From Owenia fusiformis (taxonomy: Eukaryota; Annelida; Polychaeta; Sabellida; Oweniidae), in the NCBI GenBank assembly GCA_903813345.2, contig CAIIXF020000008.1:24040822-24104821 (forward strand): a stretch of DNA of 64,000 nucleotides, written 5' to 3'. The notes beneath the pieces are model-generated. The model was not told where the DNA came from. It saw nothing but the letters and a program-made list of their open reading frames with translations, and did not search any database. Shown in pieces: positions 1,706 to 28,795 of the stretch; position 1 is the first letter of the stretch; each line of letters opens with the position of its first letter. The position numbers were made by a program, and so were the translations under genes.

Positions 1706-2015
1706 AGGAGGCCCCCCGACAGGGGGCCTCCTATAGATTTTATAGATATTATTTATTAGACTCCAGATTGAAAATCTGGAGTCTATTGCTTTTGCCAGTT
1801 TTCTTCTTATTATTAGAATGCCGGTTTCGAAGAAACGGCATTCTATAGTTTTCGCCTTTTTCTTATTTTTATTATTAGACTCCAGATGAAATCTGGAGTC
1901 TATTGTTTTCGTCAGTTTTCTTATTATTAGACTCCAGATGAAATCTGGAGTCTATTGTTTTCGTCAGTTTTCTTATTCTTATTCTTATTAGACTCCAGAT
2001 GTCAATCTGGAGTCT
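1706..2015 (+). repeat. Six serial hairpins (h0-h5) heading the tandem Helitron-like array
   Basis: Six near-perfect palindromes stand in a row at 1706-1732, 1758-1784, 1815-1844, 1877-1901, 1929-1953 and 1990-2015. Their stems are GGAGGCCCCC, GACTCCAGATT, GAATGCCG..TTTC, then three GACTCCAGAT variants. Each is followed by TATAG or TATTG and an AT-rich spacer ending in ATTAG. The same series in the same order, with fewer copies, appears reverse-complemented at 28659-28795. They look like stacked 3'-terminal hairpins of Helitron-type elements, but that role is inferred. Confidence 0.7.
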
Positions 2016-2030
2016 ATTGTTTTTGCCAGT

Positions 2031-3712
2031 ATTCTTCTTATTTTTCTTTTTGAGTTTTTTCAATAACTATAGGGTATCCAGTAAAGACCATTATACAGTT
2101 TATTTAGGTTCAGTATCTAGTTGGTGGGAAATTGGGTCAAATTTTTATCTAGGTCAGAGGTCAAGAACTAGGTCAAATTTTGCATTTTCAACATTCTATC
2201 AATTATCTTCGTTGTTATTTATCGAAACAACTTTGTCTTTTTTTCATCATGTAGCTTAGAAACAGCCCTTTCATAAGTGTGCCATCAGATTTTTGATTAC
2301 TGTTACCGATTTTGAGATATGGCGTCCGGAAAGTAGGTCAAAACAAAAAATTCTTCAAATTCAACATGTGAGTTATGAAATAAGTGTAGGATGATCTCAG
2401 GAATCCGAAACTGCAAACCAAATTTCGATCCGACTTCTGGTTCGGAAGTTATGGCGTTTTGAAAACTCAAAAATCGCTAAATTTTGTGCCCATGTTAATT
2501 CAATGGGAAAAAATATTTTTTTGAAGTGAAAAAAACGAAATATAGACTGAGTTCAGCTTAATTTAATGAAAGCTTTCAAAAGAAGGGGACCTCAAAAGCC
2601 ATCTAGCTTCAGAATTTGGACACAAAAATTCCTAGGTCAAAATCTAGGTCAAATTCAAAGGTTTTCCTTATTTTTGCGATTCTGACACTACACTTCAATT
2701 ATATTCTTCCAAATTGTGTATACATGTAGCCAAGAGTGTGCTAATAGTGTTAGCCTTTTGCCGTCAGAAAGTATTTTGACCCACTTTTGAGATATGGTGT
2801 CCGAAATGTAGGTCAAAATAAAAAGTTCTCCAAATTTAACGTATGAGTTATGAATTAGGGGTAGAATTTTGTCAGGAATCCGAATCTGCAAACCAAATTT
2901 CGATCCGACTTCCGGTTCGGAAGTTATGGCGTTTTGAAAACTCAAAAATCGCTAAATTTTGTGCCCATGTTAATTCAATGGGAAAAAATATTTTTTTGAA
3001 GTGAAAAATACGAAATATAGACTGAGTTCAGCTTAATTTAATGAAAGCTTTCAAAAGAAGGGGACCTCAAAAGCTATCTAGCTTCAGAATTTGGACACAA
3101 AAATTCCTAGGTCAAAATCTAGGTCAAATTCAAAGGTTTTCCTTATTTTTGCGATTCTGACACTACACTTCAATTATATTCTTCCAAATTGTGTATACAT
3201 GTAGCCAAGAGTGTGCTAATAGTGTTAGCCTTTTGCCGTCAGAAAGTATTTTGACCCACTTTTGAGATATGGTGTCCGAAATGTAGGTCAAAATAAAAAG
3301 TTCTCCAAATTTAACGTATGAGTTATGAATTAGGGGTAGAATTTTGTCAGGAATCCGAATCTGCAAACCAAATTTCGATCCGACTTCCGGTTCGGAAGTT
3401 ATGGCGTGTCCGAAAAGTAGGTCAAAATAAAAATTTGCCAAATTTAACGTATGAGTATCCTTTCCTTCCTATCCTTCCTATCCTCTCCTATCATATCCTT
3501 TCTTCCTATTCTGTTCTATCCTATCCTTTTTTCTTATTCTATCCTATCGTTCCTTCCCATTCTATCCTATCCTACCTTCCTGTTTTATCCATCCATCTTA
3601 TTCTGGATGACTCAGCTTATTCTGGATGACTCGGCTTATTTTAGATGACTGGGCTTAAAAAAGTCTGGATCTGGAGTCTGAAATTGAACTTCGTTCAATT
3701 TCCCAAGTCTAG
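2031..3712 (+). mobile_element. Helitron-like non-autonomous unit L1
   Basis: First of four head-to-tail units. Its body holds two tandem copies of a ~475-bp module (starting near 2461 and 2936) around the palindrome CTTCCGGTTCGGAAG. It continues with a (CCTATCCTT)n tract at 3450-3590, copies of CTGGATGACTCRGCTTATT, and a terminal hairpin with stem GAAATTGAAC, then CTAG at 3709-3712 and a T. A hairpin a few bases before CTRR, inserted next to T, is the Helitron 3' signature. No Rep/helicase frame is present, so it would depend on another element. The many 60-130 aa frames here are the repeat read in chance frames. Confidence 0.6.
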
Positions 3713-5266
3713 TTATTCTTCTTATTCTTATTATTCTTTGGGAGTTTTTTCAATAACTATGAGGTATCCAGTAAGTACCATAATACAGTTCATTTAGGTT
3801 CAGTATCTAGTTGGTGGGAAATTGGGTCAAATTTTTATCTAGGTCAAAGGTCAAGAACTAGGTCAAATCCAGTACTTTGTCACTTTTTTCGATTTTCTCA
3901 GTCGTCCTTCAATATTTTTGATCCAGGTTTTTTTCATTGTGTTCCTCATAAAAAAGTAGAAAATCTAGGGTCGATTTAGTTTTTTGGTATCTCAAACCGA
4001 TTTCGAGATATTAGTGTCCGAAAACGAGTTCCAAAAAATAATTCTCCGAATCCAATGTCCAGGATATCAGTCTTATAGGAAATTTTCTCAGGATTCCGAA
4101 TCTGAAAACCAAATTTCGATCCGACTTCCAGTTCAGATGTTATGGCGTTTTGAAAATTCAAAAATCAATAAATTTGGTGCCCCATGTTAATTCAATGGGA
4201 AAAAATATTTTTTTGAAGTGTAAAATACGAGATATAGACTAAGCACAGCTAAACATAATGGAAGCCCATAAAAGAAAGGGACCTCAAAACCTTTTTTTTA
4301 TAAAAATTTGGACACCAAAATGCCTAGGTCAAAATCTAGGTCAAATTAAAAGGTTTTCCTTATTTTTGCGATTCTGACACTACACTTCAATTATATTCTT
4401 CGAAATTGTGTATACATGTAGCCAAGAGTGTGCTAATAGTGTTAACCTTTTGCCGTCAGAAAGTATTTTGACCCACTTTTGAGATATGGTGTCCGAAAAG
4501 TAGGTCAAAATAAAAAGTTCTCCAAATTTAGCGTATGAGTTATGAATTAGGGGGAGAAATTTGGCAGGAATCCGATTCTGCAAACCAAATTTCGATCCGA
4601 CTTCCGGTTCGGAAGTTATGGCGTGTCCGAAAAGTAGGTCAAAATAAAAAGTTTCCAAATTTAATGTATGAGTTATGAATTAGTGGTAGAATTTTGTCAG
4701 GAATCCGAATCTGCAAACCAAATTTTGATCTGACTTCCGGTTCCGAAGTAATGGCGTGTCCAAAAAGTAGGTCGAAATAAAAATTCGCCAAATTTAACGT
4801 ATGAGTTATGAATTAGGGGTAGAATTTTGTCAGGAATTCGAATCTTTAAATCAAATTTCGATCCGGCTTCCGGTTTGGAAGTTATGGCATTTTGAAATTT
4901 CGGAAAATCAATCTGATGGTATCCTGATAGGAAGTCAAGAGTAGAGAAGAAAATATTGAAAAATTCATCCATCCTTCCTATCTGATCCTATCCTTCCTTC
5001 CTATTTATCCTTCCTTCGTATCCTTTCCTTCCTATCCTCTCCTATCATATTCTTTCTTCCTATTCTGTTCTATCCTATCCTTCTTTCTTATTCTATCCTA
5101 TCGTTCCTTCCCATTCTATCCTATCCTACCTTCCTATTTTATCTATCCATCTTATTCTGGATGACCCAGCTTATTCTGGATGACTCGGCTTATTTTAGAT
5201 GACTGGGCTTAAAAAAGTCTAGATCTGGAGTCTGAAATTGAACTTCGTTCAATTTCCAAAGTCTAG
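3713..5266 (+). mobile_element. Helitron-like non-autonomous unit L2
   Basis: Begins directly after the CTAG of L1 with a (TTATTCTTC)-type tract and ends at its own hairpin plus CTAG (5263-5266). Same order of parts as L1: leader, AGGTCA-rich segment near 3838-3866, CTTCCGGTTCGGAAG modules, CCTATCCTT microsatellite (about 4965-5145), GATGACTCRGC repeats, terminal hairpin. There is no gap or target duplication between units, as expected for repeated insertion at, or read-through from, the same terminus. Confidence 0.6.
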
Positions 5267-6709
5267 TTATTCTTATTATTATTATTCTAAACCAGTTTTC
5301 TCAATAACCATAATTTTTTTTAGTAAAGTCAGTCATTTGGTCAATTTAGGTCCAGAATCTAGTTCCTCGGAAATTGGGTCAAATTTTTATCTAGGTCAAA
5401 GGTCAAGAACTAGGTCAAATCCAGTACTTTGTCACTTTTTTCGATTTTCTCGGTCGTCCTTTAATATTTTTGATCCGGGTTTTTTTCATTGTGTTCCTTA
5501 TAAAAAAGTAGAAATCCTAGGGTCGATTTATTTTTTTGATATCTCAAACCGATTTCGAGATATCAGTGTCCGAAAACGAGGTCCAAAAAAAGTTCTCCGA
5601 ATCAAATGTCCAGGATATTAGTCTTATAGGAAATTTTCTCAGGATTCCGAATCTGAAAACGAAATTTCGATCCGACTTCCGATTCGGAAGTTATGGCGTT
5701 TTGAAAACTCAAAAATCGCTAAATTTGGTGCCCATGTTAAGTCAATGGGAAAAAATATTTTTTTGAAGTGAAAAATACGGAATATAGACTGAGTTCAGCT
5801 TCATATAATCAAAGCCTTGAAAAGAAGGGGACCTCAAAAGCCATCTAGCTTCAAAATTTGAACACCGAAATGCCTAGGTCAAAATCTAGGTCAAATTCAT
5901 AGGTTTTCCTTATTTTTTCGATTCTGACACTACACTTTAATTATATTCTTCGAAATTGTGTATACATGTAGCCAAGAATATGCTAATAGTGTTAGCCTTT
6001 TGCCGTCAGAAAGTATTTTGACCCACTTTTGAGATATGGTGTCCGAAAAGTAGGTCAAAATAAAAAGTTCACCAAATTTAATATCTGAGTTATGAATTAA
6101 GAGTAGAATTCTGTCAGGAATCCGAATCTGCAAACTAAATTTCGATCCGACTTCCGGTTTGGAAGTTATGGCGTGTCCAAAAAGTAGGTCAAAATAAAAA
6201 ATCTCCAAATTTAACGTATGAGTTATGAATTGGGGGGTGGAATTTTGTCAGGAATCCGAATCTGCAAACCAAATTTAGATCCGACTACCGGTTCGGAAGT
6301 TATGGCGTTTTGAAATTTCGAGAAAAATCAATCTGATGGTATCCTGATAGAAAGTCAAGAGTAGAGAAGAAAATATTGAAAAATTCATCCATCCTTCCTA
6401 TCTCATCCTATCCTATCCTTCCTATCTATCCTTCCTTCATATCTTTTCCTTCCTTCATATCTTTTCCTTCCTATCCTTCCTATCCTATCCTATCCTTTCT
6501 TCCTATTCTATTCTATCCTATCCTTCTTTCTTATTCTATCCTATCGTTCTTTCCTATTCTATCCTATCCTACCTTCCTATTTTATTTATCCATCTCTTTC
6601 TAGATGACTCAGCTTATTCTGGATGACTCGGCTTATTCTGGATGACTCGGCTAAAAAAAGTCTAGATCTGGAGTCTGAAATTGAACTTTGTTCAATTTCC
6701 AAAATCTAG
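5267..6709 (+). mobile_element. Helitron-like non-autonomous unit L3
   Basis: A 1443-bp unit with the same order of parts and terminal CTAG at 6706-6709. It carries a perfect AGGTCA direct repeat with one-base spacing near 5393-5405. It lies head-to-tail with its neighbours and has no coding capacity of its own. Confidence 0.6.
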
Positions 6710-8152
6710 TTCTTTTTCTTCTTCTTCTTCTTCTTCTTCTTATTATTCTAACCCAGTTTTCTCAATAACCATAAGGTTTTCAGTAAAGTCAGTCATTTGG
6801 TCAATTGAGGTCCAGAATCTAGTTCCTCGGAAATTGGGTCAAATTTTTATCTAGGTCAAAGGTCAAGAACTAGGTCAAATCCAGTACTTTGCCACTTTTT
6901 TCGATTTTCTCGGTCGTCCTTCAATATTTTCGATCCGGGTTTTTTTCATTGTGTTCCTTATAAAAAAGTAGGAAACCTAGGGTCGATTTAGTTTTTTGAT
7001 ATCTCAAACCGATTTCGAGATATCAGTGTCCGAAAACGAGGTCCAAAAAAAAGTTCTCCGAATCAAATGTCCAGGATATTAGTCTTATAGGAAATTTTCT
7101 CAGGATTCCGAATCTGAAAACCAAATTCAAATCAGACTTCCGGTTCGGAAGTTATGGCGTTTTGAAAGCTCAAAAATCGCTAAATTTGGTGCCCATGTTA
7201 AGTCAATGGGAAAAAAGATTTTTTTGAAGTGAAAAATACGAAATATAGACTGAGTTCAGCTAAATATAATGAAAGCTTTTAAAAGAATGGGACCTCAAAA
7301 GTCATCTAGCTTCAAAATTTGGACAGCAAAATGCCTAGGTCAAAATCTAGGTCAAATTCAAAGTTTTTCCTTATTTTTGCTATTCTGACACTACAGATTA
7401 ATTATATTCTTCGAAATTTTGTATGCATGTAGCCAAGAGTGTGCTAATAGTGTTAGCCTTTTGATGTCAGCAAGTATTTTGCCCCACTTTTGAGATATGG
7501 TGTCCGAAAAGTAGGTCAAAATAATTTTTTTTCCAAATTTAACATTTGAGTTATGAATTAAGTAAAGAATTTTCTCAGGAATCCGAATCTGCAAACCAAA
7601 TTTCGATCCGACTTCCGGTTTGGAAGTTATGGCGTGTCCGAAAAGTAGGTCAAAATAAAAAGTTTCCAAATTTAACGTATGAGCTATGAATTAAGGAAAG
7701 AATTGTCTCTGGAATCCAAATCTGCAAACCAAATTTCGATCCGACTTCCGGTTCGGAAGTTATGGCGTTTTGAAATTTCAAGAAAAAATCGATCTGATGG
7801 TATCCTGATAGAAAGTCAAGAGTAAAGAAGAAAATATTGAAAAATCCCTCCATCCTTCTTTTCTGATCCTATCCTATCCTTCCTATCTACCATTGCTTCG
7901 CATCCTCTCCTTCCTGTCCTTCCTTTTCTATCCCTTCTTCCTATTCTATTCTATCCTTCTTTCCTATTCTATCCTATCGTTCCTTCCTATTCTCTCCTAT
8001 CCTTCCTTACTTTTTCATCCATCCATCCATCCATCCATCTTTTTCTGGATGACTTAGCTTATTTTGGATGACTTGGCTTATTCTGGATGACTCAGCTAAA
8101 AAAGTCTAGATCTGGAGTCTGAAATTGAACTCGTTCAATTTCCAAAATCTAG
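6710..8152 (+). mobile_element. Helitron-like non-autonomous unit L4
   Basis: Exactly 1443 bp, like L3. It opens with a (TTC)n tract and closes with the hairpin GAAATTGAAC..GTTCAATTTC and CTAG at 8149-8152. Family X follows immediately, as it does in the mirror-image copy at 25790-26869. Confidence 0.6.
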
Positions 8153-9062
8153 TTATTATTATTCCACGCAAGATTTCTCCGCACACACCGACATGTCAGC
8201 TAATTAGCATATACCATCAACCTTGACATGTTCCTGGGCTACAGGGAAATGCCTTCATTTTTTTAATTAGCCCCTCCCTAATTAGCCAAGGTCAAATCGC
8301 AAATTTTTACATTTTTGCACGTACAAGGAGTAACCATTTTTATTGTTTACCCAAAATTTGCATATGCCATCCCTCACAATTGCCATTTCACATATATTCC
8401 GGGTTTTAAAATTGGGTGCCCCAAATTTGAAAAATGGGGCACCCCAGTGGGGCAAAATTTGAAAACTGTGTATCCGATCCCAATTCTGATCAGATATAAA
8501 GAATAGAAGCCCCTGATTCCAAATATGCTTTCGGTTTTGGAATCCGACCTCTGAGTGACCTTGAAAAGGTCAACAAGTTCAAAAATCAAAATCGCTCAAA
8601 TTGATTCCAAATTGGTACCATTGTATTACACTGTACTCGGATAGAGTAAATTAGGTCACCATTTTGACCTTGACCTTTGACATTGACCTTCAAATGACCT
8701 CAAAGTTGAAAACTAGGATTTTCATTCCAATTCTTTGCAAGTATGAAGTATGGATGTCCCTGATTCTAAATATGCTTGTGGTTTTGGAATTTGACCTCCG
8801 GGTGACCTTGAAAAGGTCAAAAAGGTTAAATTGCTAAAATTGATTCGAAATTGGTACCATTGTATTACACTGTACTAAACTAGAGTAAATTAGGTCAACA
8901 TTTTGACCTTGACCTTTGACCTTCACCGTAAAATGACGTAAAACTTATTTCTTGTTTTACCTGTTCAAGGAGCCACTGTAGTTATTTTTTGCATGCCTTA
9001 CTCTTCCCATTTAACATATCTCTAGGGTTTATAATTTGAGTGATTTTCATTCCAATTCTTTA
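8153..9062 (+). mobile_element. Family X element, left copy, 3'-truncated
   Basis: Starts TTATTATTATTCCACGCAAG and matches the reverse complement of about 25960-26868. It contains two ~238-bp tandem modules (near 8598 and 8836) rich in TGACCTTGACCTTTGACC. The 3' hairpin with CTAG seen in the right copy at 25790 is missing, because the element breaks off near 9062 where repeat R begins. Confidence 0.6.
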
Positions 9063-9492
9063 GAAATATTTTATATTACTGTTTTTGTTAACATTTTTTG
9101 TTTTTTAAGTGCAATTGTTTTTGCTCCTTTCTACCAATTCTTGAGAATGAAATAAAATGTCTTTCCGAACCTTGTTGGAACAAAATAGCATACACAACAT
9201 GTTTTTACACCTCTCAATATCATAGAATTTTCAAGAAATTAAAACAAGATCCCCCAAAATAGATAAAAATCAAGATAAACCTTTAATTTCATTAACAAGA
9301 TACTTTTTTAAAAATCAACCAAAATTTCCTTTGTACAATTACAATATTGAGAGACCTAAACATGTTGTGTTTATGTCGTTTTGTTCCAATCAGGTTTGGA
9401 AAGATGTTTCATTTCATTCTGGAAACATGATACCAAGAACAAAACAAGTGTTTGATGTGTTCTAAAACAATATAGATGAAAGTATATATATA

Positions 9493-10794
9493 TCAGGTGT
9501 CCCAAAAAAAACGTCCTGCTTTTTGAGCTCTTATAACTCTGTAAGATATTAACCAATTCATTTGAAATTTATCAGGGAGTAAGAGAACGATATTATCTAT
9601 AAGCTATAAAAATATTAAATTAATCGGATGTACATTATGTGAGTATCCCCAAATACAAGATAGCATAGCAAGAAATGTAATATCAGAGGATAACTCAATT
9701 ATTTCACCTTATAATGTAGATTGATGAGCATCGCCAAATACAAAAGTTAAACAGCATAAGATAAAAAGTTGGTACAGCAAAAGATTGACAACCCACTTAT
9801 CTAATAACTTGTGCTCAATGTGGCCTCCATCTTCCTTCACAACTAAACGAAGTCGTTTCTTCCATACATAGATACTGCTCTTGATTTCATTCTGTGATAT
9901 CTCCTGCCATGACACACTTATTATCTCTTTTAATGTTTGTTCTGTAAAATTATCCCTCATACCACTGTTAACTTTTTGATTTAGAGGATCCCAAACAGAG
10001 TAATCCATTGGATTACAGTCTGGACTTTGTGGAGGCCATTCAACCTTTTTGATAAATGCTGTGGTGGATATCTCCAGATACGCATGAGTTACCCCACTTG
10101 TGTGGGAAGGGGCCCCATCTTGAAACACATAGTCATTTCTAGGGTAAATCCTCCTACAATCAGGTAGCAGATTTTCATCTAATAACTTAATATAGCTTTC
10201 GCTGTTGACTTTGGCTTTGTCAGTATTAATGAAATAAATGTCCGTCTTCCCCTTCCAGGATACTCCTGCAGAAACCATTATCTTTTTGGATAACGTGAAG
10301 TTTCATGGTAAAGACGTGATGGTTGAATTTGACGTTTACGCTTTCCATACACCCGATCATTTTGACGATTTTTGGGCACTTCAAGAGAAAAGTCCTTCTC
10401 ATCAGTGAAAATGATCTTCTTGACATCTGCGGATGAATAACGATCATATAAATTGCGACATCTTGTTTTTCTTTTTCCTTTAACATATAAGTGAGTTGTC
10501 CATCTTTTGCTGTACCAACTTTTTATCTTATGCTGTTAAACTTATGTATTTGGCGATGCTCATCAATCTACATTATAAGGTGAATTAAGTGAGTTGTCCT
10601 CCGATATTACATTTCTTGCTATGCTATCTTGTATTTGGTAATACTCACATAATGTACATCCGATTAATTTAGTATTTTGATAACTTATAGATAATATCCT
10701 TATCTTACTCCCTGATAAATTTCAAATGAATTGGTTAATATCTTGCAGAGTTATAAGAGCTCAAAAAGCGGGACGTTTTTTTTGGGACACCCAA
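9493..10794 (-). mobile_element. Mariner-type (IS630/Tc1/mariner) transposon with ~290-bp terminal inverted repeats
   Basis: Termini TCAGGTGTCCC and TTGGGTGTCCC are both flanked by TA, the target of this superfamily. Inverted homology runs about 290 bp inward at each end (9493-9787 and 10498-10794), far longer than the ~30 bp usual for mariners. The centre encodes part of a transposase on the minus strand. Its N-terminal coding part is missing, so this is an internally rearranged copy: the right repeat seems to have replaced the 5' third of the gene. Confidence 0.85.
9709..10490 (-). pseudogene. DD37D-type mariner transposase, N-terminally truncated
   Basis: Cut-and-paste DDE transposase remnant that would act on its own element's ends in the nucleus. 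Reading leftward from 10490, the catalytic core shows the first aspartate in IFTDEKDF (codon near 10401), the second in FQDGAPSHTS and the third in PDCNPMDYSVWD. There are 37 residues between the second and third, giving DD37D as in maT-like mariners. WPPQSPDCNP is a family hallmark. The helix-turn-helix DNA-binding part expected upstream is absent. One stop or frameshift separates the DEKDF part (10226-10486 frame) from the main frame (9709-10278), and the C-terminus runs into the inverted repeat. Not functional as it stands. Confidence 0.85.
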
Positions 10795-10935
10795 TATATA
10801 TTTTTCAAATTATATTTATATATTTTATATGACCATTAAATTGACGATGTGTTAAATTTTTAGATTTTTTGATGACTGGTTTAAGAGAAACCTGTGTTCA
10901 AAAGGTTCTCCATATCGATACCACTCCTTTATCAT

Positions 10936-11435
10936 CAATTTTCGACTTATTGTAATTGAGGAAAAAAATGAGAAAATTTGGAGGTATTGGAAATAAAGTC
11001 AAATTATGTTTCCATCAATAGTATACATATTTTTATCGCAGGTTAAGTAAATAAAAATTCAAACATGTAGTTCAATGGGGAGCTAGGTTACCAAACTTAT
11101 GGAGGGGAGTGTAAAATATAAATTGCAATTATGCACTCTATCTAATACATCATTCTTGTATATTTCAACAATATCTTATTCATTAACCCTGAAAACACGA
11201 GTTTAGATAAACTAATTATGCTGCTATCATTTTTACATTTCAAGATACAGAAAACAATCAATATTTCAATAATGGCCTCGCTAATTAGCCTATATTATTT
11301 TTTCCCCATACTAACTTTTTGTCCAACCCAGCTAAATCTCTTCAGGAAACCTTTATCGTCATGAATTAACCCAAAATATCCTGTTTTTAACAATTCATAG
11401 GTTCACTATAGGATGCATAGGAGTGACAAATGGAC
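10936..11435. other. No gene seen
   Basis: AT-rich, no coding signal and no clear repeat boundaries. Confidence 0.4.
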
Positions 11436-11440
11436 TAATA

Positions 11441-12265
11441 CACAGGCTGGTATCGAAAGATTTGTCCGCTGTGACGGAGCATGCTATTTTTCATAAAAAC
11501 ACTAAGAATGCTTCACAATTTATATTTTAACTTATATGTTTCGTTATATCAAAGATAATTACTTACTCCATGCAATATCATTTGCATGTAACCTTCACTT
11601 CTGTTTGAAGTCCAATAACGCTAGGAGTAAAATCTATTGAAAACGGCGCCAGAGTATCAAACTCTAAAATGTACCATTTCTTTTTTAACTTTTTAATGGC
11701 ATGATATAGTGACACGATAATATTAACATATGTTTTCAGCATAACTCTGAATGTTTTAATGAGATATTAATGTATTGGGTCTTTTTAATTCTTTTATAAA
11801 AAATAATATAAATATTTTTTGTTCGCTGTGACGGAGCATTTTCACAGTTCACATATGCAACTGCTCCATCACAGCGGACAAAAAAATTAAACATTATTTT
11901 TCATAAAAGAATTAAAAAGACCAAATACATCAACATCTCATTTGTACCTTCATAGTTATGCGGAAACCATGTGTAAATATTATCGTGTCACTATATCGTG
12001 CCATTAGAAAGTTAAACAAGAAATGGTACATTTTGAAGTATGATACTCCGGCGCCATTTTCAATAGCTTTTCTTCCCAGCGTAATTGGACTTCAAACAGA
12101 AGTGAAAGTTACCCGCAAATGATATATCCATTGCATGGAGTAAGTAATTTTTTATGGTATAATGAAACATATGAGTTAAAAAATAAATCGTGAAGTATTC
12201 TTAGTATTTTTATGAAAAATAGCATGCTCCGTCACAGCGGACAAATATTTCGATACCAGCCTGTG
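11441..12265. mobile_element. Foldback element, 825 bp
   Basis: Two ~400-bp arms form one long palindrome centred near 11850. Ends are CACAGGCTGGTATCGAAA and its complement, flanked by TAATA on both sides (11436-11440, 12266-12270), a probable 5-bp target duplication. The motif GTCCGCTGTGACGGAGCA occurs just inside both ends and again, slightly altered, on both sides of the centre. The structure thus resembles two copies of a shorter terminal-repeat element joined head to head. No coding frame. Confidence 0.75.
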
Positions 12266-13340: not shown

Positions 13341-13744
13341 CAAAGCACTTGGATACAATTAGATCTTCTGACATTTTAACTCTTTAACATGACAATCCTT
13401 TTAATATTTTATAGATTTTACTGCATGCATTTTAACTGCAACATTTTTATTATTAACTTTTTATTGTTATTGTAATTTTATGCTGGGGAATAAAGCTTCG
13501 ATTTTATCGTTGATACTCGTTCGAAAATTACCCTATTACAGTAGGTTGACGCACGTTAGACAACTACCATATTATCGCCCATTAAGATCGATCTTCAATT
13601 ACTTAATTATATTTCCGAATTTTATGTTGCCGTTTCTGTTTTACATTCGGCAATCAGCAACTTTATATCCACGGCAATATTTCATGTTATACAGTATGTA
13701 TTTATACTCACAGGTGTGGGTAGAAATAAAATCTAAACTGAAAC

Positions 13745-14050
13745 TATAATATTGAGAGGTCTAAAAACATGTTGTATATGCTATTTTGTTCCAACAAGAT
13801 TTGGAAAGACATTTTATTTCATTCTCAATAATTGGTAAAAAGTAGCAAAAACAATTGCACTAGAAAAACAAAAAATGTTAACAAAAACAGTTATATAAAA
13901 TATTTCTAAATAATTTTCGCATTAAATTGTTGCCAATCAGTCAACATCACATAAAATACCATGTTTTTTACAGAATGTTTTCAATGATTGGTTTAAGAGA
14001 AAAACATTGTTCAATTCAGTTCTCCATATCGATACCACTCCTTTGCACAC
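13745..14050 (+). repeat. Repeat R, second copy
   Basis: Near-complete copy of R, inverted relative to 9062-9225, starting ATATTGAGAGG and running to the ATATCGATACCACTCCTTT block. The ~520 bp between 13230 and 13745 holds the minisatellite and nothing else I can name. Confidence 0.6.
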
Positions 14051-16412: not shown

Positions 16413-17356
16413 AAAGTCAGATTGGTTCAGATTTTATATGATGATGCCTAGGGACAAAGTAGATTTGTTCAAGAAAGAATTTCCAAGATGGCGGCTGAAT
16501 TTTAAAATGGCCGCTATATTTCGTAAAAAAATCTTTGATAACTCTAATACTTATTTACGGATTTGGTTCAAATTTTATATGCTGATGCCTAAAGACAAAA
16601 GAGCTATGACGAAGAAGAGAATTTCAAAATGGCTGCAAAATATCAAAATGGCAGCCATTTCTCGTAAAAAAAATGTAATCTTTGAAAGCTAAAATACCAG
16701 TGAATGGATTTGGTTCAAATTTTATATAATGATGCCCAGAGAAAAAGAAGATTTGTTCAAGAAAGAATTTTCAAGATAGCGGCTGGATATAAAAATGGCC
16801 ATCATTTTTCATGAAAAAAAAACGTAATATTTGATGACTCAAATACCAGTGAACAGATTTGATTCAAATTTTATGCTGTTGCCTAGGAACAAAGGTCAGC
16901 TACACTGAAGAAGAGATTTTTAGAATGGCTGCTAAATATCAAAATGGTGGTAATTTTTCGTAAAAAACTTAAACTTTGATAACTCAAATACCAGTGAACG
17001 GATTCAGTTCAAATTTTATATGATGATGCCTAGAGACACAGTACCTCTGTTTGACAAAGAGTTTTTAAGATGGTAGCTGAATTTTAGAATGGCTACCATT
17101 TTTCATAAAAAATGTAATCTTTGATAACTCAAATAGCATGGATTTTGTTCAAATTTTATATGCTGATGCCTGGAGACATAGTAGCTCTGTTCGATAAAGA
17201 TTTTTAAAATAGTGGCTGAATTTCAAAATGGCTGCCATTTTTCATAAAAAGGGAATGTAATCTTTGATAAGTCAAATGCTAATTTATTGATATGGTTTAC
17301 ATTTTATATTTTGATACCTAGGGACAAACAAGCTCTGCTCAAGAAGGAATTTTCAA

Positions 17357-18396: not shown

Positions 18397-18532
18397 ATGT
18401 AAAAGTAAGATAACAACTGATACTGTAAACATTGTAGATGAACTGCTAAATCATAATGCCTTTGATGATGAAGGTGACACACTTGGCCTGGCAGGATCCT
18501 ATACTTTTGGACAGGGATTTGATGTTTCCCAG
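18397..18532 (+). CDS. Candidate internal exon of the host gene
   Basis: Open frame of 45 codons (CKSKITTDTVNIVDEL, LNHNAFDDEGDTLGLAG, SYTFGQGFDVSQ) ending at a good donor CAG|GTATGA. The acidic, non-repetitive composition looks like real protein, unlike the surrounding DNA. The acceptor is poor (AAATTAG without a pyrimidine tract), so the 5' edge is uncertain between a stop ending near 18371 and 18417. It exits in phase 0 whereas the next solid exon (48707) enters in phase 1, so at least one exon in between is unseen, or this block belongs to another gene. Its 3' end has been copied three times into the satellite that follows. I do not recognise the protein. Confidence 0.5.
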
Positions 18533-19870
18533 GTATGATATATTACACATCTGATCATATTATTTCTGTGTTATAACACATATGTATCTCCCATGATATG
18601 GTACAACATGTGACACTCATGATATGAAACAACATGTATCTCATATGATATAACTCAACATTGATCTCAGTGATAGGACACAACTCGTGTCACTCATGAT
18701 ATGACACAAAATGGCCTGGCAGGATTCTATACCTTTGGGCAGGAATTTAGTATGATATAGTACAACATCTAATCAATATATTATTTCTGTGATATAACAC
18801 ATATGTATCTCCTATGATATGGTACAACATGTGACACTCATGATATGAAACAACATGTATCTCCCATGATATAACATAACATTGATCTCAGTGATAGGAC
18901 ACAACTCGTGTCACTCATGATATAACACAAAATGGCCTGGCAGGATCCTATACTTTTGGGCAGGAATTTAGTATGATATAGTACAACATCTAATCAATAT
19001 ATTATTTCTGTGATATAACACATATGTATCTCCTATGATATGGTACAACATGTGTCACTCATGATATAACACAACATGTATCTCATATGATATAACTCAA
19101 CTATAATAATAATATAATAATATGGTACAACTTGTGTCAATCATGATATAACACAACATGTATCTCCCATGATATAAATCAACATTGATCTCGATCTCCG
19201 TGATAGGACACAACTTGTGTCACTCATGATATGACACAAAATGGCCTGGCAGGATCCTATACTTTTGGGCAGGGATTTGATGTTTCCCAGGTATGATATA
19301 TTACATATCTGATTATATTATTTCTGTGATATAACAAATATGTATCTCCCATGATCTCCCATGGTATGGCACAACTTGTGTCACTCATGATATAACACAA
19401 CATGCATCTCCCATGATATAACTAACTCATCATTGATCTCCCATGGTATGGCACAACTTGTGTCACTCATGATATAACACAACATGTATCTCCCATGATA
19501 TAACTCATCATTGATCTCCCATAGTATGGCACAACTTGTGTCACTCATGATATAACATAACATGTATCTCCCATGATATAACTCATCATTGATCTCCCAT
19601 GATATGGTACAACTTGTGTCACTCATGATATAACACAACATGTTTCTCATATGATATAACACAACATGCATCTCCCATGATATAACTCAACATTGATCTC
19701 CCATGATATGGCACAACTTTTGTAACTCATGATATAATACAACATATATCTCCCATGATATAACTCATCATTGATCTCCCATGATATGGCACAACTTGTG
19801 TCACTCATGATATAACATAACATGTATCTCATATGATATAACACAACATGTATCTCCCATGATATAGCTC
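18533..19870. repeat. Satellite with amplified exon fragments
   Basis: Tandem, interleaved repeats of ATGATATAACACAACATGTA, CTCCCATGATATAACTCA and CACAACTTGTGTCACTCATG. Three copies of the exon end (TGGCCTGGCAGGATCCTATA) sit inside at 18712-18749, 18933-18970 and 19252-19290; the last keeps the intact donor CAG|GTATGATATATTACA. The duplication unit thus started within the exon and spread through the start of the intron. The minus-strand frames here (19381-19844) are low-complexity readings of the repeat. Confidence 0.8.
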
Positions 19871-21030
19871 ATTGACTATGTATTTTAACAAGGTTAATAG
19901 GGGTCTTGAGTCTAACCGTCTTGAGAGACAGGTAAACATATGGATCATTATTGTAGAAATTGTGCTTTGTTCAATGTGGTTTGACATAGATAGCTTTTGT
20001 GTTCTCTCACTTATCCATCTGTCTGTCAGTCTGTCTGTCTAAATAGTAAATAGTAGTTTTATGAAATAATTTTGTAAAAAATGAGCAAAAATATATAGTA
20101 TCATACCCACTTTTTTATTGTCTGCTGTTTTTGAGTTTTCTGACCCTTAAGCTTTAGCTATAAAGTCTTGTCTACAGGTTTCAAGCCAAATCTCTTTCAA
20201 TATGATGACAACTGATCACACCCAATTATCCTCTGTAACTGTAGGAGTCATCTGCAATGACTATCTATCACCATCTGTCTTAAAGGTCTTTTTCTGGGGT
20301 TTTTAGAGATCTTTCACAGCCCATAGTGGAAAAGTTTTCCCATTCTTGTTGAAAATACCACATATGATTAAATTCCAATAACCATTCTGTTAGCCACTTA
20401 TAATGCCTATACGATACCTGCCAGTAATTTACCAATAAATCAACAAACTTCTTGCAAATCTAGTCATTAAATTAGACTCATGAAAAAAGTCATCCTTCCA
20501 GCATCAGATCAGACGAGTACTAAACAACAGCACCCCCCCCCCCTCCCCTACACCAAAAGCTCCTTAAATCAATGTTACACGTTGTGTCATATCTCATTTG
20601 AAAGATAATTTAATTCTTGAGTAATACTCATCAAATTTTATTTAATCAAATTTTATATTAAAAGCTGCCTTTTTTCAAAGTTTGCTACTTCAGTACATTG
20701 TTTGCTATTTTGTTACGGGTTAAATGTCAAATCTCTCAAAACGGCTAGGAGTATTGAGCAATTCTACATCTTTATTGAAATCATATCCATCCAGATTAGC
20801 TGCTACTTTGAGCAGCAAGTGGTGGCCATACCAACTACTAATAAACGGGTGTTAATCTGTTGAATAAGGTCTTACAAAGCTGAATTGTCTTTAAACTAAG
20901 ATATGACACACCATATAACATGAAGTAAGATTTGCTATAGAGGGGGTGCCATTGTTTTTCTTCAGCATTACATGTACTTTCAATGAATCAGAACCATAAC
21001 ACAAAAGGGGACGATGTACTCCATTTGAAG
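19871..21030. other. No gene seen
   Basis: Unique-looking AT-rich sequence with one C tract (about 20531-20545) and (GTCTGTCT)n near 20020. Possibly intron. Confidence 0.35.
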
Positions 21031-21032
21031 AT

Positions 21033-22434
21033 ATGCATGTACTGTCTGTTACACTGCTTCAAAGGCAAGCAGTTGAAACTGAAAAATAAGAAATCTATAG
21101 ACCATTGTTCCATAATATATAGACAGATATATTCATATTGCACTCGAATGACATTTGTATAAATCAGATTATTTAGTGTTTCCCAATAAGCCTGTGCCCT
21201 CTTGTAATTTGAGGTCTGTCCGCCATGTAATTTTTTTTGAGAATTAACATGGTAGAGAAGCATCAAAATATAAGAGGTTACAGTCTTTATGAGCCAATTT
21301 ACAAGCTATCCAACATATACAAATGTCATTCGTGTGCAACATGAATATATTTTTTTATTGTACCTAATAAAGGTACGATATTGTCGTCAGCTTGACGGGC
21401 GGCGGGCGGGCGGCAAGCGGGCGGGTGGGCGGGCGGCAAGCGGGCGGGTGGGCGGGCGGCGGGCGGCGGGCGGGCGGCGTCTCACTTTTCAGCTTGTCTA
21501 CAGGTTTCCAGCCAAACCATTTGACAGATTCATCTGAAATTTTCAGGAATGTTTCTACGTATCAAAGTTAAGAACTGATTAGTTTTTGGGCATTCTGGGT
21601 AAATTTTAAGGTGGCCATTTTGGATTTTCCGTCCTAAAATCTTCACTTTCAAGACTTGTCTACAGGTTTCCAGCCAAACCATTTGACGGATTCATCTGAA
21701 ATTTTCAGGAATGTTTCTACGTATCAAAGTTAAGAACTGATTAGTTTTTGGGCATTCTGGGTAAATTTTAAGGTGGCCATTTTGGATTTTCCGTCCTAAA
21801 ATCTTCACTTTCAAGATTTGTCTACAGGTTTCCAGCCAAACCATTTGACGGATTCATCTGAAATTTTCAGGGATGTTTCTACGTATCAAAGTTAAGAACT
21901 GATTAGTTTTTTGGCATTCTGGGTAAAATTTAAGGTGGCCATTTTGGATTTTCCGTCCTAAAATCTTCACTTTCAAGACTTGTCTACAGGTTTCCAGCCA
22001 AACCATTTGACGGATTCATTTGAAATTTACAGGGATGTTTCTACATATCAATTTTGTTAACAACTGATTAGTTTTTGGGCATTCTGGGTTAATTTTAAGG
22101 TGGCCATTTTGGATTTTCTGTCCTAAAATCTTCACTTTCAAGACTTGTCTACAGGTTTCCAGCCAAACCATTTGATGGATTCATCTGAAATTTTCAGGGA
22201 TGTTTCTACGTATCAAAGTTAAGAACTGATTAGTTTTTGGGCATTCTGGGTAAATTTTAAGGTGGCCATTTTGGATTTTCTGTCCTAAATTCTTCACTGT
22301 CACACTGCTGTGTTTTAGGTACGATATTGTTCACATCTGTGCCTTGTTCTATATATTATTGCACAATATTATTTAGATTTCTTATATTTCAGGTTTAACT
22401 GCTTGCCTTTGAAGCAGTTTAACAGACTTTAAAT
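21033..22434. mobile_element. Foldback element split by a 162-bp-repeat element
   Basis: 21033-21165 pairs with 21310-21352 and, beyond the insertion, with 22335-22434. Shared words include CTGCTTCAAAGGCAAGCAGT near 21050 and its complement near 22400, and GAATGACATTTGTATA near 21150 and its complement near 21320. Without the inserted 21360-22320 segment this would be a simple ~430-bp palindrome. No coding content. Confidence 0.6.
21360..22320 (+). mobile_element. Element with 162-bp tandem core (P162), plus orientation
   Basis: Starts with hairpin GTACCT..AGGTAC followed by GATATTGTCG, then a GC-rich minisatellite (GGGCGGC, 21390-21480) and five ~162-bp tandem copies (starts about 21488, 21651, 21813, 21976, 22140). 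These contain CAGCCAAACCATTTGACGGA and AAGGTGGCCATTTTGGATTT. GGTACGATATTGTTCAC recurs at the far end (22317). The same repeat occurs in opposite orientation at 59800-60410. A hairpin end, a microsatellite and a ~160-bp tandem core match the pearl-like / Helitron-like layout. Confidence 0.6.
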
Positions 22435-23460
22435 TCAGATTTTCCCCAAATCACAATAGGTAATTTGATTTAGGTTGGATATAGTATGTACATGTATATG
22501 ATTCACATAAAAAAACAAAAGTAAGGGTTGATGGTCGTGTTTGAGATCGTTTGTGTGAACCATTGTTTGAATATCGAGAAGAAGTTTGCAAATCTTTACA
22601 TGAAAATGCAAATTCATATAATTTTTGAATATGAATCAAAATAGGGAATTGTCATTTGAATTTGATAACATTAGCAGACAAATGGAAAATATTATTTCAA
22701 TTGAAATCAGATTTATTTTGGGTCCTTTACAACATTAAACCTAACAATTAGGAAAGATATTTAATTACCCCACATATCAGTATTTTTGAATGGTATGTTG
22801 TAAGTTATTTACAATAACACATCCTTCTTCAACACGCCCGGTGATCGTACAAAAATGATGGAGGGGGGATTAGGCGATTTCTGCAAGAAAACTCAACAAA
22901 GGACCGGTGTCATTAAGGGCCCTTTTTAGCCCCCAAAGATATCTGATAATAATGCATATCATATTGAAGAAAAATCACTTGTGCTTTATGAAAATACAAT
23001 TTCAGCGAATTTTGACCTTTGATGTTCACACAACAGTCATTTAAAGATCATATACCATTTTTGGTGTCTTTATAAAAATTTCTTTATTTATTGTTTTCTA
23101 AGTAAATAATATATATATATAAACCAATTTAAATATATTAAAATGTAATGTATGAAATACTGAAGAAAAGATACGATTAAAACTATTTTCATGAAAAAGC
23201 ACATAGGGCAATATTGGCAAAATGCAAATACTATTTTGGTAGGTTCTGGGCTAGCAATGGGTACATTTCAACTGTGAATGTAATGGATAACTATTGACTT
23301 TTATCAACATCACAAGGAAAATCAAAGATTTCCACTCATTTCTAAAACGAGGAACAAAAGCATGAATTCAAGGAAAAGAAATGATGGCCTGTGCCAAAAT
23401 ATAACATATGAGAAAGTTGTGGCACAGTAAAGGATATGTTTAGGATACCATATGATTTTA
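22435..23460. other. No gene seen
   Basis: AT-rich. A short segment near 22830-22865 (ACGCCCGGTGATCGTAC) is repeated in inverted orientation near 40935, so it is part of a dispersed repeat. No exon signal. Confidence 0.35.
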
Positions 23461-23464
23461 AATG

Positions 23465-23570
23465 ATTTCATCTCCGAGTTGATATCAATATCTTGCCAAG
23501 TTAGCATAGCGAATGAGCGCAGATATTGATATCAATGAGTGGTTTAACACGATATTACGAAAAGTCATAG
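23465..23570. repeat. Palindromic GATATCAA repeat, copy 1
   Basis: CGAGTTGATATCAATATC is followed ~25 bp later by GCGCAGATATTGATATCA, forming a hairpin around TAGCGAATGAGCG. A closely related hairpin lies at 28930-29015. Confidence 0.6.
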
Positions 23571-23695
23571 GATGTTCCATTTATACCATAGTTCACCTAT
23601 AAAACTAAACAAAGCATATCCAAACAACATCCATTCATTCATTCATTCATCCCCCTGATGTCATGAAATCATTATGTAACAAAACACATCATATT

Positions 23696-24500
23696 GGTGG
23701 TAGTTATCCCATCCCGTCCGTCCCTCCATCCGTCCGTCCGTCCGTCCGTCCGTCTGTCAGTCTGTCAGTCAGTCCGTCAGTCCATCCGTCTGTCTGGAAG
23801 ATAACACGAATATTAGTCAACAGATTTTCTTCATATTTAATGGAAAGATGTATATTGGTGAACAGTTTTACTCAAACAATTTTTTTTCAAAATGGCCACC
23901 AGTTTAAAAATGGCGGGAATTTTTCGCAAAAATCTTATGTTTTTCATTTTAAACCAAAATAATAAATATTATTATTTGAAATTTTGGTAGTATATTAACA
24001 TCTATCTATTTCACATATATCTCGGGTTTTTCACCCTGATCGCCAGGGGCCGTAAATGGGGGATCGGGAAAACAGGAATTTGCGTTAATTTTGAGATGTT
24101 TTTGAAGTATAGCTTTATTATACTCAAATGAAAGGCAATTTAGAGTAGATTGCAAATATTGTAAAATTTTTCTGATTTGGGCCTAAAAAAATTCAAAATG
24201 GCCACCTAATGCGGGATTTCGCTATTGTTTTCTGATCTCTTTAAAGTATGGCTATATTAAACTCAAATTGAAGGAATTTCAGAGTAGATCACAATTATGG
24301 CATTGTTTTTCTGATTTGCGCCTCTGAAAATTCAAAATGCCATTTTCTAGTTTTCAAATCCCTGGCAAAAGGTGATATCTGTGAAATATTTTCCGTATTC
24401 CACAGATTTTTCCACGCATTTACAAAAAAATATCATAAATATGGGATAAAGAATAACAAATATGTAAAGAATTGAATTACCACTCCAAAAATATTAATAA
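23696..24500 (+). mobile_element. Helitron-like element, 3'-truncated
   Basis: Begins around TTATCCCATCCCGTCCGTCC with a (CCGT)n and (CAGT)-type microsatellite. It continues with GGAAGATAACACGAATATTAG and ~200-bp repeats with TATACTCAAATGAAAGGCAA, matching 49659-50245 and 52500-52980. It stops where unit R0 begins at 24501, so R0 interrupted or replaced its 3' end. Confidence 0.6.
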
Positions 24501-25789
24501 CTAGACATGTAAATTGAACAAGTTCAATTTAAGACTCCAGATTTCAGACTTTTTTTCAGCTGAGTCATCCAAATACTTCTAAGCTGAGTCATTCAGAATA
24601 AGCTGAGTCAGCTAGAATATAGACATTTAGACAACTCTTAACTCATTCAATACGAATATAAGGAAAAACTATGAATTTGACCTAGATTTTGACCTAGGCA
24701 TTTTGGTGTCCAAATTTTAAAGCTAGATAGCATTCGAGGTCCCCTTCTTTTATAGGCTTTCAGAATGTTAAGCTGTACTCAGTTTATATCTGGTATTTTA
24801 CACTTCAAAAAAATCTTTTTTCTCATTGACATAACATGGGGCACCAAATTTAGCGATTTTTGAGCTTTCAAAACGCCATAACTTCCGAACTGAAAGTCCG
24901 ATTGAAATTTGATTTGCAGATTCAGATTCCTGGGAAAATTTTACCCTTAATTCATAGCTCATATGTTAAATTTGGAGAGTTTTTATTTTGACCTACTTTT
25001 CGGACACCATATCTCAAAAGTTGGTCAAAATACTTTCTGACGGCAAAAGGCTAACACTATTAGCACACTCTTTGCTACCTGTATACAAAATTTTGAAGTA
25101 AATTATTTAAGTGTAGTGTCAGAATCGTAAAAATAAGGGAAAACAATGAATTTGACCTAGATTTTGACCTAGGCATTTTGGTGTCCAAATTTTGAAGCTA
25201 TGGAGCTTTTGAGGTCCCCTTCTTTTATAAGCATTCATTATGTTAAGCTGTACTCAGTCTATATCTTGTATTTTACACTTCGAAAAAGTCTTTTTTCCCA
25301 TTGACTTAACATAGGCACCAAATTTAGCGATTTTTGAGCTTTCAAAACGCCATAACTTCCGAACCGGAAGTCTGATCCAAATTTGGTTTGCAGATTCGTA
25401 TTCCTGAGATCATTCTACACTTATTTCATAACTCACATGTTGAATTTGGAGAACTTTTGTTCTGACCTACTTTTCGGACGCCATATCTCAAAATCGGTAA
25501 GAGTAATCAAAATTCTGATGTCATATCTTTGATTCGCCTTTTTCTAAGCTACACGATGAAAAAAAGATGAAGGAGTTACGAAGAATATTGACGAAGATAT
25601 GATGAAGAATGTTGAAAATGTAAGATTTGACCTAGTTCTTGACCTTTGACCTAGATAAAAATTTGACCTAATTTCCCAGAAAGCCAGATACATTCCCTAG
25701 TCAACCATGTAGGTTGGATTAAGTAAGATGTTATAGTTGGAGAGAAAATCTGTTAGGAGGAAGAAGAAAGAAAGAAAAAAGAAGAATAA
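24501..25789 (-). mobile_element. Helitron-like unit R0, inverted
   Basis: Reading on the minus strand, this is the same family as L1-L4, ending in hairpin AAATTGAAC..GTTCAATTT and CTAG at 24501-24504. It contains two CTTCCGGTTCGGAAG-type modules and the AGGTCA-rich leader (25625-25670). It lacks the long CCTATCCTT tract. Confidence 0.6.
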
Positions 25790-26868
25790 CTAGACATTTA
25801 AAATCGCCACGGGGGCGATTTCGTAGAATGCCGTTCCTCGCCGCAGCAGCAAATTCGGTGCACAATTGACCTTTTTCAAGGTCACGCAGAGGTCGAATTC
25901 CAAAACCGAAAGCATATTTAGAATCAGGGACATCCATACTTCATACTTGCAAAGAATTGGAATGAAAATCACCCAAATTATAAACCCTAGAGATATGTTA
26001 AATGGGAAGAGTAAGGCATGCAAAAAATAACTACAGTGGCTCCTTGAACAGGTAAAACAAGAAATAAGTTTTACGTCATTTTACAGTGAAGGTCAAAGGT
26101 CAAGGTCCAAATGTAGACCTAATTTACTCTAGTTTAGTACAGTGTAATACAATGGTACCAATTTCGAATCAATTTGAGCAATTTTAGCAATTTAACCTTT
26201 TTGACCTTTTCAAGGTCACCCGGAGGTCAAATTCCAAAACCACAAGCATATTTAGAATCAGGGACATCCATACTTCATACTTGCAAAGAATTGGAATGAA
26301 AATCCTAGTTTTCAACTTTGAGGTCATTTGAAGGTCAATGTCAAAGGTCAAGGTCAAAATGGTGACCTAATTTACTCTATCCAAGTACAGTGTAATACAA
26401 TGGTACCAATTTGGAATCAATTTGAGCGATTTTGATTTTTGAACTTGTTGACCTTTTCAAGGTCACTCAGAGGTCGGATTCCAAAACCGAAAGCATATTT
26501 GGAATCAGGGGCTTCTATTCTTTATATCTGCTCAGAATTGGGATCGGATACACAGTTTTCAAATTTTGCCCCACTGGGGTGCCCCATTTTTCAAATTTGG
26601 GGCACCCAATTTTAAAACCCGGAATATATGTGAAATGGCAAATGTGAGGGATGGCATATGCAAATTTTGGGTAAAAAATAAAAATGGTTACTCCTTGTAC
26701 GTGCAAAAATGTAAAAATTTGCAATTTGACCTTGGCTAATTAGGGAGGGGCTAATTAAAAAAATGAAGGCATTTCCCTGTAGCCCAGGAACATGTCAAGG
26801 TTGATGGTATATGCTAATTAGCTGACATGTCGGTGTGTGCGGAGAAATCTTGCGTGGAATAATAATAA
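25790..26868 (-). mobile_element. Family X element, right copy, 3' end intact
   Basis: Minus-strand copy of the element at 8153-9062, here with its terminus: hairpin AAATCGCC..GGCGATTT (25800-25821) next to CTAG at 25790-25793. The body contains two ~238-bp modules rich in AGGTCA. It joins R1 directly at 26869, in the same order as L4 to X in the left composite. Confidence 0.65.
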
Positions 26869-28640
26869 CTAGACTTTGGAAATTGAACGAAGTTCAATTT
26901 CAGACTCCAGATTTAGACCATTTTTAGCTGAGTCATCCAGAATAAGCTGAGTCATCCAGAAAAAGATGGATGAATAAAATAGGAAGGTAGGATAGGATAG
27001 AATAGGAAGGAACGATAGGATAGAATAAGAAAGAAGGATAGGATAGAACAGAATAAGAAGAAAGGATATGATAGGAGAGGATAGGAAGGAAAAGATACGA
27101 AGGAAGGATAGATAGGAAGGATAGGATAGGATAAGATCAGATAGGAAGGATGGATAAATTTTTCAATGTTTTCGACTTATCTACTCTTGACTTTCTATCA
27201 GGATACCATCAGATCGATTTTCCGAAATTGAGCTTTCAAAATGCCATAACTTTCGAACCGGAAGTCGGATCGAAATTTGGTTTGCAGACTCGGATTCCTG
27301 AGAAAATTCTACTCTTAATTCATAACTCATATGTTAAATTTGGAAATTTTTTTATTTTGACCTACTTTTCGGACACCATATCTCAAAAGTGGGTCGAAAT
27401 ACTTTCTGACTGCAAAGGTTCACACTATTAGCACACTCTTTCCTACCTGTATACAAAATTTTGAAGCAAATCATTTAAACATAGTGTCAGAATCGCAAAA
27501 ATAAGGACAAACTATGAATTTGATCTAGATTTTGACCTAGGGATTTTGGTGTCCAAATTTTGAAGTTAGGTAGCCTTCGAGGTCCCCTTCTTTCATAGGC
27601 TTTCATTATTTTAAGCTTTACTTAGTCTATATCTCATATTTGACACTTAAAACAAATCTTTTTTCCCATAAACATAACATGGGGCACCAAATTTAGCGAT
27701 TTTTGAGCTTTCAAAATGTCATAACTTCTGAACCGGAAGTCGGATCGAAATTTGATTTGCAGATTCGGATTCCTGAGAAAATTCTATGCTTAATTCATAA
27801 CTCAAAAGTTAAATTTGGAGAATTTTTTATTTTGACCTACTTTTCGGACACCATATCTCAAAAGTGGGTCAAAATACTTTCTGACGGCAAAAGGCTAACA
27901 CTATTAGCACACTCTTGGCTACATGTATACAAAATTTCAAAGAATATAATTAATCTGTAGTGTCAGAATCGCAAAAATAAGGAAAAACTTTGAATTTGAC
28001 CTAGATTTTGACCTAGGCATTTTGGTGTCCAAATTTTTATGAAAAGAAGGTTTTGAGGTCCCTTTCTTTTATGGACTTCCATTATGTTTAGCTGTGCTTA
28101 GTCTATATCTCGTATTTTACACTTCAAAAAAATATTTTTTCCCATTGAATTAACATGGGGCACCAAATTTAGCGATTTTTGAATTTTCAAAACGCCATAA
28201 CTTCTGAACCGGAAGTCAGATCGAAATTTGGTTTTCAGATTCGGAATCCTGAAAAAATTTCCTATAAGACTGATATCCTGGACATTGGATTCGGAGAATT
28301 TTTTTTTGGACCTTGTTTTCGGACACTGATATCTCGAAATCGGTTTGAGATACCAAAAAACTAAATCGACCCTAGATTTTCTACTTTTTTATAAGGAACA
28401 CAATGAAAAAAAGCCGGATCCAAAATATTGAAGGATGACGGAGAAAATCGAAAAAAGTGACAAAGTACTGGATTTGACCTAGTTCTTGACCTTTGACCTA
28501 GATAAAAATTTGACCCAATTTCCAAGAAACTAGATCTAGGACCTAAATGGACCATATATAAGACTTGACTCAATATCTTCTAGTAAACGAGAAAACTGGG
28601 AAAGAATAATAAAGAATAATAATAATAAAGAATAATAAAG
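26869..28640 (-). mobile_element. Helitron-like unit R1, inverted
   Basis: Terminal CTAG at 26869-26872 plus hairpin GAAATTGAAC/GTTCAATTTC, then GATGACTCRGC repeats, an AGGATAGGA microsatellite (26970-27150), three body modules and the AGGTCA-rich leader near 28470-28520. Mirror image of L1-L4, but a single unit instead of four. Confidence 0.6.
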
Positions 28641-28658
28641 AATACTGACGAAAACAAT

Positions 28659-28795
28659 AGACTCCAGATTTACATCTGGAGTCTAATAAGAAGAAAAAGG
28701 CGAAAACTATAGAATGCCGTTTCTTCGAAACACGGCATTCTAATAATAAGAAAACAGGCAAAAACAATAGACTCCAGATTTTCAATCTGGAGTCT
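28659..28795 (-). repeat. Serial hairpins, mirror copy
   Basis: Three palindromes at 28659-28684, 28711-28741 and 28769-28795 (stems GACTCCAGAT, AGAATGCCG, GACTCCAGATT). They correspond in reverse order to h3-h5, h2 and h1 of the left series. The GGAGGCCCCC hairpin is not present here. Confidence 0.7.

Follow-up and report, generated by a model that had tools for sequence, protein, structure and literature searches.

Arrays of non-autonomous HINE/Helitron2-type elements in Owenia fusiformis very probably grow by nested insertion into leaders of their own kind

Tandem Helitrons have hitherto been ascribed to bypassed termination or to rolling-circle products. A stretch of 64,000 nucleotides from the annelid Owenia fusiformis (hereafter the window; assembly GCA_903813345.2, contig CAIIXF020000008.1, positions 24,040,822 to 24,104,821 of the forward strand) carries two arrays of short Helitron-like elements that are very probably explained in another way, by nested insertion of elements of the HINE/Helitron2 type into the leaders of their own kind. 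Likenesses to described systems, and differences from them, are given here as they appear from parts of the papers cited. Cg_HINE, a non-autonomous Helentron of the oyster (PMC7492417), shares with the Owenia elements a 5′ subterminal repeat with a complementary repeat, a microsatellite in the left module, central tandem repeats, a 3′ subterminal repeat with a palindrome, and a preference for TT in T-rich DNA; its shared microsatellites are of the GTCY type, whereas those found here are T-rich, and the terms ‘nested’ and ‘insert into’ occur nowhere in that text. Helitron2 elements, including FoHeli of Fusarium, likewise hold an asymmetric inverted repeat in the 5′ hairpin, a copy of which lies upstream of the 3′ hairpin (PMC3627910, PMC5148889). 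For the Fusarium elements self-insertion and several 5′ termini have been reported, and it has been proposed that copies with more than one 5′ end but a single 3′ end are mobilised as such; for a Metarhizium trio two explanations have been put forward, one of them being that insertions repeatedly struck the 5′ end (PMC5148889). FoHeli1 and FoHeli2, however, end in ATTTT rather than CTAG, and they are isolated cases where Owenia has thousands of bracket-ordered ends. Proto-Helentron-Pi of Phytophthora (PMC4067079) has the same 3′ CTAG. If the TT before the Owenia hairpins belongs to the element, the two further agree in starting with TT and in their A|T site, A preceding the Owenia element in 56 of 61 flanks and T following it in 33 of 33; the Phytophthora element is nevertheless reported to be about 14 kb long and coding, whereas those described here are short and non-coding, and 5 of the 61 flanks have T or G in place of A. 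Finally, the tandem arrays of Helitrons in bat and silkworm that PMC4067079 cites also have head-to-tail neighbours, but bypassed termination is thought to underlie them, in contrast to the nested order seen here. Our search of the literature, which left subscription papers mostly uncovered and is thus no proof, found no report of nested-order arrays at this scale or of a leader serving as a landing site.

The Owenia elements are non-autonomous and have the HINE/Helitron2 anatomy, which is itself already known. They belong to three families, U (subtypes A, B, C and D), X and T, and their hairpins are read as 5′ ends because the stem of each family recurs in inverted form before that family's own 3′ hairpin and CTAG. 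Immediately ahead of the 3′ hairpin and its CTAG, U units of the window carry ATCTGGAGTCT, the reverse complement of the U stem AGACTCCAGAT; CGGCATTCT, ahead of the X 3′ hairpin, stands in the same relation to the X stem AGAATGCCG. When the T 3′ end was searched for in the genome with the stem of h0, the T hairpin in the window, 34 matches were returned, of which 33 have one common hairpin type and end in TCTAG (the reversed control gave 1 and 1). In single-strand folding, three 5′ ends from the three families each beat 200 of 200 shuffles, and the U and X 3′ ends, to which the 3′ test was confined, were each equalled by 1 shuffle in 200. A TTATT/TTC-rich microsatellite forms the leader near the 5′ end, U bodies contain internal repeats of about 475 and 133 bp, and the arrays of the window lack coding capacity, their longest open reading frame being 127 amino acids on the left and 93 on the right. 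The 5′ hairpin begins with AG and is preceded by TT, unlike the 5′ TC without a 5′ hairpin of Helitron1; the 3′ CTAG agrees with the CTRR of that group. The Helitron-like nature put forward in the original prediction is borne out; its treatment of the hairpins as separate elements was mistaken, as each is the 5′ terminus of a unit or of X.

The nested order is seen most simply in the right composite, which lies on the minus strand, spans 28795-24501 and comprises three hairpins and three CTAG ends. The hairpin of the outermost element, of U subtype B, occupies 28769-28795; within the B leader lies an X hairpin (28711-28741), and within the X leader a hairpin of U subtype D (28659-28684). The leader and body of D, the innermost element, follow at 26869-28658 and end on a CTAG at 26869 (U type), after which come those of X (25790-26868, CTAG at 25790) and those of B (24501-25789, CTAG at 24501, again of U type). 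The bodies (D X B) thus repeat the 5′ ends (B X D) in exactly reversed order. The last of these segments had been taken for a unit outside the composite and instead belongs to it, as the body of its outermost element.

On the plus strand, the left composite spans 1706-9061 and contains six hairpins, four CTAG unit ends and one cut X. Its hairpins are those of T (h0, 1706-1732), whose own body and 3′ end are absent on the left, of U subtype B (h1, 1758-1784), whose body is also absent, of X (h2, 1815-1844), of U subtype A twice (h3, 1877-1901; h4, 1929-1953), and of U subtype C (h5, 1990-2015), which runs straight into its own leader and body. Four units follow, L1 (2016-3712) and L2 (3713-5266) of subtype C, and L3 (5267-6709) and L4 (6710-8152) of subtype A, each figure including leader and body. 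L2 is surplus relative to the lone C hairpin. The leader and body of X (8153-9061), for which h2 is read as the 5′ end, have lost their 3′ part. It had been noted that unit junctions fall at hairpin plus CTAG, and that L3 and L4 are both 1443 bp long; both hold, the four junctions lying at 3712, 5266, 6709 and 8152 with TT after each. The 5′ ends therefore read T B X A A C and the bodies C C A A X, so that the bodies mirror the hairpins once one C body is set aside, with the B and T bodies missing beyond 9061. Inverted copies of 172 bp, 93% alike, lie at 9054-9225 and 13744-13915, the left one starting at the X cut, and an element with long inverted ends, or an adjoining deletion, may have removed the remainder of the left array. 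Elsewhere in the window, inverted arms of 315 bp, 94% alike, flank an element of about 1.3 kb (9486-9800 and 10487-10801), and tandem repeats occupy 16422-17356 (units of about 147 bp), 18475-19871 (about 26-326 bp) and 21482-22302 (about 162 bp).

The two composites differ in content. Their closest shared part is X, at 98.0% over 918 bp, and no pair of left and right units exceeds 92.2% identity in alignments over 600 bp. The features of the two mirror-image composites were found where the original prediction had placed them, but what it described as one ordered series repeated on both sides is in each case a set of nested pairs with contents of its own.

The same order recurs elsewhere in the assembly (498 Mb in 525 contigs; C1, C28 and similar labels denote contigs, and L followed by three digits denotes a single locus that was read). 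Among the loci read, hairpin subtype matched body subtype in 24 of 25 contiguous pairs, partly by construction, since the key to A, B, C, D and X was drawn from loci that were then scored. For bodies lying apart from their own hairpin, nested pairing predicted the subtype in 9 of 12 cases (permutation 0.0007), all three misfits being in the left composite; without that composite the same strict scoring gave 8 of 8 (permutation 0.003). Pairs with an unclassified hairpin subtype, such as that in L048, were excluded from the direct and nested counts, and bodies without an open hairpin (L003, L050, C28) went unscored. One array (L058 with L073) opens with B and D hairpins, continues with a D/A-like body and then a B body, and has host flanks on both sides; another (L076) opens D B B and closes B B D. 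Over the portion read, L069, L070 and L075 also fit the nested order, and the array at L072 could not be classified by subtype.

A larger test was made on the first 25.6 Mb of C1, with the first 100 U 3′ ends listed there, the 94 U hairpins of the same stretch and one X pair. Chaining with gaps of at most 10 kb gave 48 arrays, of which 33 combined hairpins with 3′ ends, 11 had 3′ ends alone and 4 had hairpins alone. Scoring here compared loop type with 3′ type only, two loop kinds and one 3′ kind being left unscored. In the 33 arrays that combine the two, the count of 5′ ends correlates with that of 3′ ends at 0.88, and in single pairs loop type and 3′ type agree in 15 of 15 cases, with keys taken partly from the same loci. 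Nested pairing fits 69 of 77 pairs, against a mean of 36.7 and a maximum of 51 in 2000 shuffles. The discrimination comes from arrays of mixed type, where nested order fits 33 of 39 pairs and first-in-first-out order 18 of 39; arrays of one type give 21 of 23 under either order and hence do not discriminate. An array at C1:3414-3431 kb has nine openings balanced by nine closings. The longest run among the matches listed on C1 covers about 53 kb (C1:22590006-22643116); exact matches in it number 23 for the U hairpin and 24 for the U 3′ end, and it fits the nested order only in part.

Genome-wide counts were made with exact patterns, so that diverged copies are not listed, and 5′ and 3′ totals rest on patterns of unequal strictness. 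The U hairpin has 2553 matches and the U 3′ end 2803, with no match to the reversed pattern or to the 3′ control; X has 59 hairpins, 69 3′ ends and 59 body starts. The X family shows where its copies are split. In 22 of the 59 the body lies near its own hairpin (within 120 bp, in fact 23-50 bp), and none of these 22 is behind a CTAG; of the remaining 37, 31 stand directly behind TCTAG and a T-rich leader, 26 of them with an X hairpin 1.1-24.3 kb upstream and 5 without one within 40 kb. Read from the other end, the next feature after the 59 X hairpins is a U hairpin in 17, another X hairpin in 10 and the element's own body in 22, and 15 of the 17 followed by a U hairpin have a junction of CTAG with an X body within 30 kb downstream. 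These counts imply that a leader of a few tens of bases has been hit in about half of the copies. By eye, 10 of 32 junctions of CTAG with an X body come after a listed X 3′ end. At C12:19506442-19534005 the distance from an X hairpin to the next listed X 3′ end is 27.5 kb, with an oppositely oriented RepHel domain between them.

In the read loci and the window, all 61 distinct 5′ flanks end in TT, mostly as TTATT, and all 33 3′ flanks begin with TT after the CTAG. Insertion is into T-rich DNA, with TT as one reading of the site, and a reading as A|T fits nearly as well: if the TT before the hairpin is counted as part of the element, the preceding base is A in 56 of 61 flanks and T or G in 5. 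Nothing longer than TT is constant in the flanks and, in line with the earlier claim, no long target duplication is seen; the TT on either side could belong to the target or to the element, and a duplication of these two bases may exist. The leaders being rich in TTATT and TTC, each element carries its own target.

The termini, the match of hairpin type to body type, the nesting in most of the arrays examined and the split at the leader are seen directly, and they point to a simple route to the arrays. An element consists, in order, of a 5′ hairpin, a short T-rich leader, a body with internal repeats, an inverted copy of the 5′ stem, a 3′ hairpin and CTAG. A new copy would land in the TTATT-rich leader, between the hairpin and body of an older one, displacing the older body downstream and leaving its hairpin upstream, so that 5′ ends would accumulate with the outermost first and bodies with the innermost first, like nested brackets. 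As the newcomer would supply a fresh leader, growth would proceed from inside. The protein would presumably be supplied by a Rep-bearing element of the genome, acting by rolling-circle chemistry. The PF14214 profile finds 58 RepHel matches, Rep-domain genes with open frames above 3000 amino acids are present, Helitron_like_N was recognised in both pieces scanned, and OTU domains lie upstream of a third copy. A long open frame upstream of a RepHel domain (C1:21111500-21114300) matches OTU protease and a herpesvirus tegument N-terminal family. A second process that gains or loses single hairpins or bodies is probably also at work, because bodies occur in excess (the C C pair on the left, tandem X), as do hairpins (for example at C1:944024); hairpins or leaders that are nearly identical could slip or exchange unequally, or stacks of 5′ ends could be re-mobilised.

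Several results weigh against the nested account, or at least against its being complete. In the left composite, with its additional C body, 3 of the 4 pairs scored depart from strict nesting; the fit is poor in three C1 arrays (10/14, 2/4 and 2/4), and at L068 with L074 no further body was found in the roughly 6 kb behind the first. T has 250 hairpins against 34 3′ ends, an imbalance due in part to the narrower 3′ pattern, which demands CTAGTTATT. Six of the 59 X bodies are preceded by neither their own hairpin nor a CTAG, 10 of the 59 X hairpins have neither hairpin nor body next within the limits used, and at four loci (C3:5780534, C10:17628062, C10:24452151 and probably C11:14797743) there appear by eye to be two X bodies in tandem with one X hairpin. 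Only 15 of the 19 direct bodies measured, and 18 of the 31 others, show an X body-to-3′ distance of 1022-1167 bp; in the remainder it is shorter or longer, partly since the next listed 3′ end may be that of another copy, and the leader is thus not the sole place of change. Hairpin-hairpin junctions identical to the letter at four or five loci would allow for the copying of stacked 5′ ends. As to the protein source, no autonomous element with such termini came to light: the U hairpin was absent from 30 RepHel loci, in sequence reaching only 1.5 kb beyond the domain, and matching termini were not seen in two flank pieces of one RepHel copy (C1:21115714).

Surplus bodies such as the C C pair on the left and the tandem X copies with one hairpin are what would be expected if a single event laid down head-to-tail copies, their number changing by skipping of the terminator, and tandem Helitrons have been explained by read-through in print (PMC4067079). 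Such read-through predicts, however, that hairpins and bodies alternate, whereas hairpins are stacked and followed by bodies in reverse order of type, and we consider it very unlikely as the source of the arrays. The original prediction had allowed for unit number to change either by read-through or by repeated insertion at the same terminus; the latter, placed near the terminus, agrees with our results, and in the part of the genome tested the reverse order of bodies argues strongly against the former as the main process. That prediction also had the composite mobilised or duplicated as a whole, and a larger mobile unit, whether the entire composite or just a portion of it, B containing X for instance, would account for the recurrence of B followed by X among 5′ ends (left, right and L069), for one B-X junction that is letter-identical at four loci, including the right composite, and for the A A X common to C28 and the left composite. 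Yet the run in C28, A A A X, has its A subtypes ordered otherwise (C28_A3 is 97.6% like L3 and C28_A1 94.4% like L4), 29 X-type hairpin arms lie in U leaders of several subtypes, the two composites of the window are unlike in content, and leaders are so alike that identical junctions can form independently. The permuted A subtypes and the X arms in several U subtypes are better explained by independent nesting from one pool than by block transfer, and, after a unit-by-unit comparison of left, right and C28, the whole composite as mobile unit was rejected as the main explanation; copying of such a block to several loci is improbable.

Greater weight, though still well short of an even chance, is given to the idea that, alongside nesting, the additional 5′ hairpins travel as passengers of elements which have more than one 5′ end to a single 3′ end and are mobilised in that form. 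Two arrays (C1:944024 and C1:16248891) have two hairpins to one 3′ end, L043 has identical doubled hairpins, and a junction between a C-type U hairpin and an X arm is letter-identical at C1:657449, C4:20613081, C9:26295000, C10:19207157 and C10:21755742; none of these five is among the exact X hairpins, and in L072, the only one read, the X hairpin is broken. Against this, the 5′ and 3′ totals of U and X are of similar size, and 3′ ends that seem to be missing could have diverged beyond the exact patterns used. By analogy with the proposal for Fusarium, stacks of 5′ ends may have been copied onward. That collapsed or duplicated repeats in the assembly made the arrays could be entertained in DNA so highly repetitive, with many related copies on small contigs, but the rule recurs at many loci on large contigs with different contents, which makes misassembly, raised earlier as a caution, scarcely credible as the cause.

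If nested insertion is the main process, the order of types distinguishes it from read-through at single loci, and nesting supplies a relative time order of insertions. The family is shown to be able to use its own copies as targets, and some caution is called for, as such arrays can be miscalled as tandem duplications with orphan hairpins. It is conceivable, though we think it rather doubtful, that the T-rich leader is an evolved landing pad by which these families aim insertions at their own kind, with arrays growing without limit from inside; were this so, host genes would be spared and the target would be self-renewing.

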